From a virus, in the IMG/VR virus record IMGVR_UViG_3300043449_000947, positions 1 to 64,000 of that record: a stretch of 64,000 nucleotides of DNA, one strand, 5' to 3'. The notes beneath the pieces are model-generated. The model saw nothing but the letters and a program-made list of their open reading frames with translations, had not been told where the DNA came from and did no database searches. Below are positions 3,061 to 63,995 of this stretch, piece after piece. Positions within the stretch are counted from its first letter, which is position 1, and each line of letters opens with the position of its first letter. A program made the position numbers and the translations under genes.

Positions 3061-3155
3061 ATGAACAAGACTTCGCTATCCACCTAGTCATCCTAGGTGG
3101 CGCTATCTTCGCTGTCATAGCTGCTCTCATAGAACGCTATAAAGCTAATAAATAA
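3057..3155 (+). CDS. Single-pass membrane micro-protein (32 aa)
   Basis: It starts in an ATGA overlap with the previous gene. Residues 8-24 (HLVILGGAIFAVIAALI) form one membrane helix, followed by a basic tail (ERYKANK). The positive C-terminal tail suggests it faces the cytoplasm. It probably works with the preceding membrane protein. No family can be named. Confidence 0.6.
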   Translation: MNEQDFAIHLVILGGAIFAVIAALIERYKANK

Positions 3156-3160
3156 ACTTC

Positions 3161-3193
3161 TAGGCCCAATCGATGCTCAGTCGATTGGGCCTA
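3161..3193 (+). terminator. Strong hairpin after the membrane gene pair
   Basis: A 13-bp perfect inverted repeat, TAGGCCCAATCGA with TCGATTGGGCCTA around a 7-nt loop, lies six bases after the 3155 stop. There is no T-tract, so it may be an RNA-stabilising or processing hairpin instead of a true terminator. Confidence 0.5.
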
Positions 3194-3237
3194 TACCCAT
3201 GCAACTACCACCGGGAGCTTACACAAAGCTTTTTATG

Positions 3238-3283
3238 TAGGTAGTTGGGTATTGGGTATCCGTTTATGTACGGTTTTTCGTAC
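3238..3283 (+). promoter_or_regulatory. Promoter-like repeated element, copy 3
   Basis: TAGGTAGTTGG then TATTGGGTATCCGTTTATGT is followed by the palindrome GTACG-N6-CGTAC (3268-3283). This replaces the GTAACG/CGTTAC of copy 1 with changed but still paired arms. ATAAATAGGTATGTA just downstream also occurs before the MoxR gene (about 9447), so the leader is shared. Confidence 0.6.
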
Positions 3284-4387: not shown

Positions 4388-4632
4388 TGTTGGGAAGTTG
4401 GGCTTTTTCAGGGTGCGCCTATTCCTATATAGAAAAACATTTTTCTTATTTTTATACAATTCTATAGTTCTATAGTGAGTAAGTAAAAAAAAGTACAACA
4501 TACAACAAATAGTATAAAAGCTAGAGATATCAAGGGCTGCACGTGTTGTGATTTGTGTTGTGATTTGTTTTTTCTGACCTCAAAAATCACAACACACAAC
4601 ACTTTTGAGCTTTTTGCCTCTGTTGTGGTTTA
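4388..4632 (+). repeat. Left copy of the inverted control region (IR-L)
   Basis: This region without genes (4190-4673) is AT-rich. Its core 4426-4528 (from TATATAGAAAAAC to GCTAGAGAT) recurs in inverted orientation at 26548-26651. The match extends outward to TTG(G/T)GAAGTTGGG on one side and TCTGTTGTGGTTT on the other. It carries direct repeats GTGTTGTGATTT (4543, 4555) and a perfect inverted partner AAATCACAACAC (4584-4595). Further CACAAC/GTTGTG boxes lie at 4331-4353. It is probably a transcription-control region or replication origin for the block that starts at 4674. Confidence 0.8.
4470..4498 (-). promoter_or_regulatory. Candidate outward (leftward) promoter in IR-L
   Basis: On the minus strand TTGTAC (4498-4493) is followed after 17 bases by CTATAG, within ACTCACTATAG. 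That 11-mer equals the core of the T7-type phage promoter; the same layout fits a weak sigma-70 promoter. The right-hand copy is identical in spacing. Leftward transcription would run antisense to 2167-4189 and then reach terS-terL. No single-subunit RNA polymerase gene lies in the window. Confidence 0.35.
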
Positions 4633-23978: not shown

Positions 23979-24152
23979 ATGATCGCGAATATCGAAGAAA
24001 TTTTAGTTAATTCAAGACGTGCTCTCATAAAAAATCCAACAAATGACGAAGCTAAATCGGCGTTGTCATGGTGTATCTTTAATCTTCTGCAGATTCGAGC
24101 AGAAGTCCCAAAAGAGATAGAACATATAGTCAGAAAATGTTCGCAAGCTTAA
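23979..24152 (+). CDS. Small helical protein (57 aa)
   Basis: It begins with MIANIEEILVNSRRALIK and ends with EIEHIVRKCSQA. Soluble and helical. The stop codon abuts the first stem of the structured RNA region. No family recognised. Confidence 0.55.
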   Translation: MIANIEEILVNSRRALIKNPTNDEAKSALSWCIFNLLQIRAEVPKEIEHIVRKCSQA

Positions 24153-24447
24153 TGGGCGGCGGAAATCCTTTTAACCAAGGGTTCACAAAACGACTGTCGC
24201 CCACCCTTTACGGAGTAGCACTGCGTATGACGATACGAAATCCTGTTGCGATGGCGGTATAAAAACCGGACTCGGATTGACGAGTTAAGTCGGGTAGCTA
24301 CTCCACCCTTTAATGACCCTCGGCCTTACTTTCTATCTTATTTTTTGGGATGGACAGTTCGATCAAAATCTCCGAGGGTCACCCATTTACAGCGCAAAAT
24401 AGCGAACAGAAGGCCAGAGCTGCACATCGTAGCGCAATGCAATTAAA

Positions 24448-24510
24448 GAAAACGCGCTGAGAATTCAGCCAATACAGGCCCATTTATGGGCCTTATTTGG
24501 GTGGGTTTTC
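24448..24510 (+). repeat. Three-way-junction RNA motif, copy A
   Basis: Outer stem GAAAAC (24448-24453) with GTTTTC (24505-24510). Second hairpin GCTGA-GAAT-TCAGC (24456-24469). Third hairpin AGGCCCAT (24476-24483) with ATGGGCCT (24486-24493), closed by CAA/TTG. The junction side keeps GGGTGG before the outer 3' strand. Compare with copy B. Confidence 0.7.
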
Positions 24511-24559
24511 CCATCAGATGCAAGATAGTGCAAATACAAGAACCGCAAAACATAGCATC

Positions 24560-24625
24560 GAAAGCAAGTGAGCTGAGAATTCAGCCAGTGCGAGACTCTC
24601 TGAGTCTCCATCTGGGTGAGCTTTC
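24560..24625 (+). repeat. Three-way-junction RNA motif, copy B
   Basis: Outer stem GAAAGC (24560-24565) with GCTTTC (24620-24625). Second hairpin GCTGA-GAAT-TCAGC (24572-24585), identical to copy A. Third hairpin GAGACTC (24592-24598) with GAGTCTC (24602-24608), closed by CAG/CTG. The third helix has an entirely different sequence from copy A yet pairs perfectly; the outer stem has an A-U to G-C change on both strands. GGGTG is conserved. Confidence 0.7.
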
Positions 24626-24707
24626 AATAATTGATTTGCTCCGCCATGCATCGCATCGATAGTAAATTAAATGCAATGTCTTTATCACTTCAACTCAGGA
24701 AATCATC

Positions 24708-25304
24708 ATGTCTATTGAATCTATTAACGTAAAAATTTCCGGTATCCAACCTCTGCTGATGAGTAATCCGCAGACGGTGGATCGTTTCAATCCCTTTGCT
24801 AAAGAGATAGCCAAGATTAACGCCAAGAAAACTCGTCGTACTGACGAAGATTACAGGCATCTGGCTGATCTTGAAGTTCGTTCCAAAGTCCATTGGTCTG
24901 ACGATCATGGCGTGTTCGTTCCTAGCACTTGGTTGTTAGCAGCTCTGTGCAAGAACGGCTTTAATCTTAAGAAGCTCGCGAAAGATAAGATTCGCGGCTC
25001 GGTATTCACTACCGCTCCAAAGATCAAGCTTAACTACGAAGGACAGGATGTTGTTCAGACGCTTGATGATGTCGTAGGCAATCCTCGCTTTCGTTATCAG
25101 ATGAACGTGAAGCAAGGACAGGTACGCATCATGAAGTCCATGCCTATCTTCAAAGACTGGTCTTTTGAGACTGAACTTGAATTTGAAAACACTCAGATCG
25201 ATCCATCTGACCTCAAGGCTTTGCTTGAATACTCGGCCAAGTACGGTGGTTTCGGTGACTTCCGTCCTACCTTCGGTCGTTCTGTTGCAGAGGTAACCAT
25301 CTGA
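24708..25304 (+). CDS. Widespread phage protein with GDxRPxxGR C-terminus, RAMP-like candidate
   Basis: 198 aa. Family landmarks are ISGIQPLLMSNP near the N-terminus, KKTRRTDEDYRHLADLE, VFVPSTWLLAALCKNG, MKSMPIFKDWSFETELEFE and the C-terminal GGFGDFRPTFGRSVAEV. I know this as a common phage family without assigned role. The glycine-rich RP-G-R ending and alternating strands resemble RAMP-fold RNA-binding proteins (Cas5/Cas7-like), but this is fold-level inference. CTCAGGAAATCATC gives a ribosome site. Its placement just after the structured RNA region is notable. Confidence 0.7.
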   Translation: MSIESINVKISGIQPLLMSNPQTVDRFNPFAKEIAKINAKKTRRTDEDYRHLADLEVRSKVHWSDDHGVFVPSTWLLAALCKNGFNLKKLAKDKIRGSVFTTAPKIKLNYEGQDVVQTLDDVVGNPRFRYQMNVKQGQVRIMKSMPIFKDWSFETELEFENTQIDPSDLKALLEYSAKYGGFGDFRPTFGRSVAEVTI

Positions 25305-25732
25305 TGAAAACTAGAGAAGACATCGTCTCTTGGTTCAGAGCAAATAAACTGGACCAGTATGGAGCTGTAATCAGAAGAACAGACATCCTTTCATTTGCCG
25401 ATATAGAGGTTCCCGCAGTCGGTACGATGAAGGAGTTCGAACAGATTGCTCTGCTTGAAGTAGGTATCACTCAGTATCTGCGTGATCTTCTACTCAAGGA
25501 GGGCAAATACCTGAAAAAAGATGGAGACTTCTATAGAATTCTCCTTCCATCCCAAAACCTTCAGCAGATCCAGTCGTACATGCGCTCCGCAGATAAGAAG
25601 CTACGTAGAGCTCGTATATTGAGCGTCAACACTCCTGTGCAGCATCAAGACATCGCTGACAATCTTAAGGTGCGCATTCACATGAAAGAACAGTCGACAC
25701 GCCATGCACGTGCATACGGTCATGCTGTTTAA
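25304..25732 (+). CDS. Basic protein paired with the 24708 gene, unknown function
   Basis: 142 aa, coupled by a TGATG overlap to the 24708 gene. The middle (DFYRILLPSQNLQQIQSYMRSADKKLRRAR) and the end (MKEQSTRHARAYGHAV) are basic, consistent with nucleic-acid binding. The N-terminal half resembles a winged or helical domain. No family firmly recognised. Confidence 0.7.
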   Translation: MKTREDIVSWFRANKLDQYGAVIRRTDILSFADIEVPAVGTMKEFEQIALLEVGITQYLRDLLLKEGKYLKKDGDFYRILLPSQNLQQIQSYMRSADKKLRRARILSVNTPVQHQDIADNLKVRIHMKEQSTRHARAYGHAV

Positions 25733-26432: not shown

Positions 26433-26690
26433 AAAACCACAACAGACCTAACACACCCGAAATCGCTAAAAAGTGTTGTGATGTTGTGATTTTCAGCTGG
26501 CGAAAATAAGAATCACAACAGAATCACAACACCCTCAAACCCTTACCATCTCTAGCTTTCTTATATATTTGTTGTATGTTGTACTTTTTTTAGCTTACTC
26601 ACTATAGAAATACAAAAATGTAAAAAAATAGAAAAAATGTTTTTCTATATATGACTTAGCGAGTGAAAAAACCCCAACTTCACAACAAGC
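26433..26690 (-). repeat. Right copy of the inverted control region (IR-R)
   Basis: The gap between the convergent plus and minus blocks (26377-26750) holds an inverted copy of the 4.4-kb region. Core 26548-26651 reads, on the minus strand, from TATATAGAAAAAC to GCTAGAGAT. Paired boxes are GTGTTGTGAT (26473-26482) with ATCACAACAC (26523-26532), and TGTTGTGATT (26482-26491) with AATCACAACA (26511-26520). AAACCACAACAGA (26434) matches TCTGTTGTGGTTT of the left copy. No gene starts beside this copy, so a pure promoter role is unlikely. Confidence 0.8.
26579..26607 (+). promoter_or_regulatory. Candidate outward (rightward) promoter in IR-R
   Basis: TTGTAC (26579-26584), 17 bases, then CTATAG (26602-26607) within ACTCACTATAG, the same arrangement as the left copy. 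It would transcribe antisense into the 3' end of the late operon. Confidence 0.35.
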
Positions 26691-63328: not shown

Positions 63329-63995
63329 ATCGAACTACTCGCACTTTGTGTTTTGCCCGGTCCTTCTCTCGCCTTACAAAGTCGCAGTAGCTGGTGAAAG
63401 CCGCCGCGTCTTCCGCTGCCTTTATCTTATTAAAGGTTTCAGCGTCTTGCTTATTATACGCGAGAGAACGCATCCATTTAAGCAAATGTATATGGTGATG
63501 GCTAGGAACATCAACGAGTTCCTGACCGCCGTCCGTTATATCAACAAGTGGGAGTCGTTCGACAAGCAGTCTTACTGAATAGTCACGATCTGGTATGGCC
63601 ACCCACTCGACTAATCCGGGCTGCATACCAATCACGATGTAGCGCACTTTACCGATGGTGGTAGTACTGTTCAGATGACGGAGAATTCCGTAGTCGATAT
63701 CTGAAAGAGTGCTGACATCCTGTGCGTTAATTACTTTAACCTCGTCACCCGTATCTTCTAGGGTGGCGGTACGGACTAACAAGATTTTCTGACTGATCTC
63801 TCCATTACGCTCGCCTTCAGCTGCAGTGAGCTGACAGACGTCAGAGAGATAATCAGGAATTCCGCCGACGAGGCGCACGAACATGTAGTACGCATCGTTC
63901 ATGTATGCGTACACCTCTTCGTCGGACCAGAGATACGGTCTAGCTGTATCTACTACGTCCTTACGGAACAAATCATGCAGTTCGTCACTGGTCAT
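63315..63995 (-). CDS. Phage adaptor-like protein
   Basis: 226 aa. An N-terminal helical region (SDELHDLFRKDVVDTARPYLWSDEEVYAYMNDAYYMFVRLV, broken here only by position) matches the connector or adaptor layout of podoviruses, and the C-terminal LLKWMRSLAYNKQDAETFNK helix is typical. Such proteins bind below the portal and dock fibres. The gene continues the late operon from beyond the right edge. Confidence 0.7.
   Translation of the reverse strand: MTSDELHDLFRKDVVDTARPYLWSDEEVYAYMNDAYYMFVRLVGGIPDYLSDVCQLTAAEGERNGEISQKILLVRTATLEDTGDEVKVINAQDVSTLSDIDYGILRHLNSTTTIGKVRYIVIGMQPGLVEWVAIPDRDYSVRLLVERLPLVDITDGGQELVDVPSHHHIHLLKWMRSLAYNKQDAETFNKIKAAEDAAAFTSYCDFVRREKDRAKHKVRVVRYGGI

Follow-up and report, generated by a model that had tools for sequence, protein, structure and literature searches.

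What is encoded in the roughly 500 nt between two genes of a phage in which an earlier note had seen structured RNA and no credible gene? The interval lies in a window of 64,000 nt, i.e. the whole stretch of viral DNA that was analyzed, within a long block of rightward genes and on their coding strand, and is bounded by a 57-aa ORF, which ends at 24152, and by a gene starting at 24708. The stretch consists of two parts: a block of three hairpin elements, E1 to E3 (24153-24381), and an array of guide RNAs (vrRNAs) of the VIPR (Viral Interference Programmable Repeat) type (24389-24632). VIPR, described in a 2026 preprint (PMC13142463), is a CRISPR-like system used by phages against competing genetic elements; it is a months-old discovery in which DNA is recognized by RNA guides through a gapped code, and it has been proposed to be older than CRISPR.

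Coding content and folding of the interval

Candidate ORFs in the interval had codon scores from -0.46 to +0.07 bits/codon, mostly below zero, whereas real genes score mostly above zero; this agrees with the reported lack of a credible gene, albeit codon scores are weak evidence for ORFs as short as these. Folding was exceptional in the region 24150-24629 (+ strand), whose z score of -8.5 was the lowest among 133 windows of 480 nt over 64 kb (runner-up -5.7), on a grid that was aligned to this region and so favors it. In comparison with shuffled sequences, 24150-24707 gave z = -6.1 on the + strand vs -4.0 on the - strand, which folded more weakly (z -3.4 to -4.0), and both halves were significant separately (E1-E3, z = -4.15; array, z = -5.0), so the strong foldability claimed before is beyond chance. 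The region was not singled out on a grid of 120-nt windows, since this grid cuts the stems. Apart from this locus, the 120-nt windows 3121-3240, located in a short gene-poor gap, and 63361-63480 folded very strongly (z about -7). No promoter-like site was present in the interval. Nor was there a terminator-like site on the + strand, in agreement with the view that the stems are no ordinary terminators.

No close relatives of the source phage were found, its nearest polymerase being 39-40% identical, and a DNA similarity search against phages yielded no useful match. The phage is a distant relative of the Pseudomonas phages of the KPP25 group, and the locus thus puts VIPR in a phage of such affinity.

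The genes following the interval

Two intact genes follow the array directly:

24708..25304, + strand: vipr, encoding a 198-aa RAMP/Cas7-like protein with the G-rich loop GGFGDFRPTFGR, phrog_4652 (assigned from sequence and fold)
25304..25732, + strand: vap-like partner gene (142 aa), which shares one base with the end of vipr

By sequence, the product of the first gene had one significant match in the PDB, the entry 36pp ("SUSP1 Vipr protein"), with an E value of 5.9e-24 for the single sequence and 4.5e-33 for a profile. It is 49-54% identical to eight aligned homologs, and the G-rich loop (GGFGDFRP..GR) is kept among the aligned sequences (8-9). When an AlphaFold2 model (pLDDT 83.5) was compared with the PDB using Foldseek, the best matches were to backbone subunits from CRISPR complexes of types VII and III (TM about 0.5), and the protein shares its fold and G-rich loop with the backbone proteins of Class 1 CRISPR systems (Cas7 family, type III Csm, type VII). 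It therefore represents the single-RRM RAMP homolog with a G-loop that is expected of VIPR, listed in PHROG under an entry of unknown function.

The accessory gene expected beside vipr is found as well. The vap-like product is 37-42% identical to the vipr-adjacent genes in loci L001-L012, and this neighbor is kept in ten related loci (E about 1e-30 to 1e-9), with weaker similarity to its counterparts in Listonella phage phiHSIC and Vibrio phage 1.266.O and no detected similarity to the vipr neighbor of Felixounavirus wV8. The closest known system is type II VIPR of Escherichia phage SUSP1 (PMC13142463; PDB 36pp), which likewise has a homologous Vipr RAMP protein, a second gene after vipr, and intergenic RNAs in which a tract of pentanucleotides containing variable NN is joined to a structured 3' tail. 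Unlike in SUSP1, both guides of the present phage lie upstream of vipr and are preceded by three extra hairpins, and the triplet is a loose, GCA-like one instead of GGY.

Guide tracts and tails of the vrRNA array

The second part of the interval contains the following features:

24389..24443, + strand: vrRNA1 guide tract, 11 loose GCA/NN pentamers (best GCA/NN run of the window)
24444..24516, + strand: vrRNA1 3' tail with the hairpins GCUGAGAAUUCAGC, CCAAUAC..UAUUUGG and GUGGGUUUUCCCAU (alternatively, a single long irregular hairpin)
24520..24564, + strand: vrRNA2 guide tract, 9 pentamers (second-best GCA/NN run)
24565..24632, + strand: vrRNA2 3' tail, a paralog of the vrRNA1 tail that differs in stem sequence and has the same pairing
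24648..24677, + strand: possible truncated third tract, GCATC GCATC GATAG TAAAT TAAAT GCAAT, with no tail (from sequence)

A published VIPR RNA comprises 9-16 pentamers and a structured tail, and in its scaffold variable NN alternates with a fixed triplet, for which GGY "or a related consensus" is given (PMC13142463). The tracts found here have 11 repeats (ACAGC GCAAA ATAGC GAACA GAAGG CCAGA GCTGC ACATC GTAGC GCAAT GCAAT) and 9 repeats (GCAAG ATAGT GCAAA TACAA GAACC GCAAA ACATA GCATC GAAAG), with the GCA consensus common to relatives; vrRNA1 may extend by two further pentamers, reaching 24453, and CAAGT is a possible tenth pentamer of vrRNA2. They are the top two GCA/NN runs of the 64 kb on both strands, in a search whose triplet was taken from the relatives, and the top score was reached by 2/3000 shuffles of the region and never in 60 shuffles of the entire 64 kb. 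When all 64 triplets were compared, GCA came out best here as well. The scaffold is nevertheless loose, with 24/33 matches to GCA in vrRNA1 and 19/27 in vrRNA2; the only position that hardly varies, in either tract, is the A that closes the triplet, and strict GGY is absent. Similarly, the lag-5 autocorrelation (0.38-0.49 in the window) is weaker than in the clean tracts of relatives with the same gene context, where it amounts to 0.53-0.68 vs about 0.2-0.3 at most lags other than multiples of 5. Around the third tract, which alone is not significant, it was 0.49 (24629-24690).

The tails form two direct-repeat copies (D1 and D4) spaced 115-116 nt apart. They had been described as two copies of a three-way junction; the two copies are real, whereas the junction is not the sole fold, as an irregular hairpin of about 20 pairs fits both. 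Comparison of the copies revealed five pairs changed on both sides in the model alignment, or six when the loop gap was placed by hand, vs one broken pair. In a random-substitution test, the observed pairing of copy 2 was reached in 913 of 200,000 trials, and the observed covariation in 22 of 500 shuffles. With two copies, the compensated pairing is supportive, though not decisive alone. In further searches for the tails, an exact 18-mer had a single chance match in IMG/VR, inside a portal-like gene, a spaced tail pattern had none, and a covariance model built from the two tandem copies found, besides these copies, a weak match in L009, about 250 nt upstream of the vipr homolog. A pseudoknot has been reported in the vrRNA tails of the SUSP1 clade (PMC13142463).

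Conservation of the array in related loci

In unrelated phages, tandem long hairpins were present upstream of the vipr homolog (L001-L010), and the hairpins of phiHSIC, Vibrio phage 1.266.O, and wV8 are likewise accompanied by pentamer-periodic spacers, GCANN in the first two and GGTNN in wV8. In these relatives, the tail is a single long hairpin, after which a short one usually comes. The homologous loci that the earlier note had wished to see compared thus exhibit a conserved architecture, to which the compensated pairs between the two tail copies may be added. In a sample of 398 genomes, which represents one phylum and was drawn through a Hyphomicrobiales MAG, phrog_4652 was carried by 14, and clear pentamer tracts were found at 14 of the 15 vipr loci, mostly GGY/NN. 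Tracts with GGC are present in Gordonia phage Trine and Mycobacterium phage prophiBWHA-1. The record L104 encodes a divergent Vipr (E = 1e-15) with GTT/NN tracts around it and a helix-turn-helix gene. In the divergent VIPR locus L132 (2041-2457), GTT/NN tracts separate vipr, a helix-turn-helix gene, and the gene after it. Such arrays are unrecognized or misannotated in public phage records: that of wV8 is annotated merely as "repeat_region DR_4", and the annotated ORF21 of phiHSIC (L128, 4614-4895) is an antisense reading across the vrRNA array and probably spurious.

Taken together, the homology and fold of Vipr, the tracts, the compensated tails, and a layout that recurs in unrelated loci make it highly probable that 24389-24632 carries a pair of VIPR vrRNAs. 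The earlier note had overlooked two features that account for the second half of the stretch, namely the neighboring vipr gene and the tracts of 5-nt periodicity that separate the hairpins, and had called the whole stretch undescribed; it is indeed outside Rfam, and E1-E3 are undescribed, whereas the second half belongs to a published class. The class of the array is therefore known (PMC13142463), and what is new is this member with its unusually loose repeat scaffold. Scaffold triplets are highly variable (GCA, GGY, GTT, and nearly A-only here), which bears on the bases that Vipr needs.

Points against the VIPR reading are the looseness of the scaffold, the lack of a promoter-like site in the interval, the partial third tract, and target searches that yielded nothing above chance. 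Owing to this loose, non-GGY scaffold, the array could also be diverged or decaying. That it is a degenerate, inactive one, which retains vipr and vap while its guides decay, is a minority reading that we still take seriously: the scaffold matches are far fewer than in relatives, and the third tract has no tail, yet both genes are intact, compensated changes keep the tails paired, and the A closing the triplet hardly varies in either tract.

The leader RNA of TRAP consists of 11 repeats of (G/U)AGNN. The resemblance to the present tracts, i.e. a triplet plus two spacer bases repeated about 11 times, is an analogy only, as the protein and the triplet are different and the array has hairpin tails and hypervariable NN.

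The E1-E3 hairpin block

The first part of the interval comprises:

24153..24201, + strand: E1, hairpin with a 10-bp closing stem including two G-U pairs (24153-24162/24192-24201) and a 7-bp inner stem, beginning at the stop codon that ends the preceding ORF
24203..24210, + strand: linker ACCCTTTA after E1, continuing as CGGAG, Shine-Dalgarno-like
24212..24304, + strand: E2, branched element with an 8-bp perfect closing stem (24212-24219/24297-24304)
24305..24312, + strand: linker ACCCTTTA after E2
24314..24381, + strand: E3, hairpin with a 10-bp perfect closing stem (24314-24323/24372-24381), followed by CACCCATTTA

Of the three closing stems reported as perfect, those of E2 and E3 are so, and that of E1 is not. 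The sequence said to flank E2 on both sides was recovered as CCACCCTTTA at 24201 and 24303, and each of the three elements is followed by ACCC(A)TTTA. No run of GCA/NN pentamers was found in E1-E3; we read them as operon-internal hairpins rather than vrRNAs, and they probably form an element of their own within the transcript that carries the array.

The closest match to the block was found in L104 (4827-5002, - strand), in which a stem, ACCCTTTACGGAG, a second stem, and ACCCTTTA follow one another in a non-coding gap, the gene upstream of which encodes an ERF recombinase; among the matches to patterns with paired ACCCTTTA it was the one real structural match, the others being chance coding matches. 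Across the compared loci, stems immediately preceded ACCCTTTA at 8 of 60 sites vs 0-2 for control words, a count that is biased because several loci were retrieved by that very motif. Single hairpins of the E1-E3 kind also stand directly before ribosome sites in Erwinia phage Zoomie, L116, and L119. A 16-mer linker match and a blastn match in Zoomie were rejected as relatives of the block, being ordinary intergenic hairpins before a ribosome site.

Such hairpins might be sites of mRNA processing or 3'-end stabilization (RNase III type) in an early operon. For E1-E3, this is the most likely explanation. Extended to the entire stretch, with A-rich spacers devoid of meaning, it is improbable: it fits the long irregular hairpins of about 20 pairs, the lack of a promoter-like or terminator-like site of their own, and the intergenic occurrence of a single hairpin with ACCCTTTA, Shine-Dalgarno sequence, and ATG in other phages, but does not predict pentamer-periodic spacers recurring beside vipr in unrelated loci. 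A bolder proposal is that the scaffold of this clade needs only the A at the third position and that E1-E3, with their ACCCUUUA linkers, are a second, undescribed RNA component traveling with VIPR. We consider this joint proposal rather unlikely; its second part draws on L104, the sole other phage found with the two-stem layout, which encodes a divergent Vipr and GTT/NN tracts. As the Vipr of L104 is encoded elsewhere in its genome than this layout, the link of E1-E3 to VIPR is possible and unproven.

That the interval holds small protein genes is improbable, too. The potential product of the ORF 24152-24262, which overlaps the preceding stop codon (TAATG), is MGGGNPFNQGFTKRLSPTLYGV...; it is similar to an ORF of L104, with which it has PTLYG in common. 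The codon score of 24152-24262, however, is below most genes of the phage, the shared DNA conserves synonymous positions too, the L104 peptide had no tblastn match in 50,697 phage records, and such a gene would account for E1 at most.

A large ornate phage RNA, which the length and stem density might suggest, is hardly credible, as Rfam at two thresholds (gathering threshold included) gave no family match for the stretch, GOLLD, ROOL, OLE, and HEARO among those searched, and a relaxed scan of the region yielded only chance-level matches to other families. A tRNA search returned nothing, leaving a tRNA-like reading of E1-E3 unsupported. A CRISPR array was rejected, too: the stems vary between copies, the spacers are pentamer-periodic, near-identical direct repeats with unique spacers are absent, and family searches of nearby proteins found no cas genes.

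Proposed mechanism and targets

In published VIPR systems, Vipr binds the RNA and represses transcription, double-stranded DNA being recognized through the NN pairs, which skip 1 nt; the natural targets are mainly satellites and prophages (PMC13142463). By extension, each vrRNA of the present phage would consist of a 5' tract of fixed-triplet/variable-dinucleotide pentamers and a structured 3' tail, and the transcribed array would be processed into RNAs of about 100 nt. Vipr would bind them with its subunits aligned along the tract, possibly forming an RNA-lined RAMP oligomer by analogy with Class 1 CRISPR backbones, from which it would differ by the discontinuous reading of the guide. The NN pairs would then be read against double-stranded DNA with one base skipped (NNxNNx...), provided that the skip rule applies to this clade, and the bound complex may block transcription of a competing element.

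No target rose above chance in the loci and genomes covered, a weak outcome being expected of a search that could not be aimed at the host and its rivals. Matches with a 1-nt skip among the compared loci were at chance level and no better than those with other skips, the skip-3 matches being array-to-array matches. In the 398 genomes, the predicted target of vrRNA1 had one match with two mismatches, which is about the chance expectation; it lies at L148 (G102:C6:88966-88997), and the genome concerned has a vipr gene as well.

An additional observation concerns AT-rich segments at about 4440-4510 and 26560-26670, where the rightward gene block begins and ends; they seem to be inverted copies of one another (GTTGTATGTTGTACTTTTTTT..CTTACTCACTATAG) and include a sequence resembling the core of a T7-type promoter.
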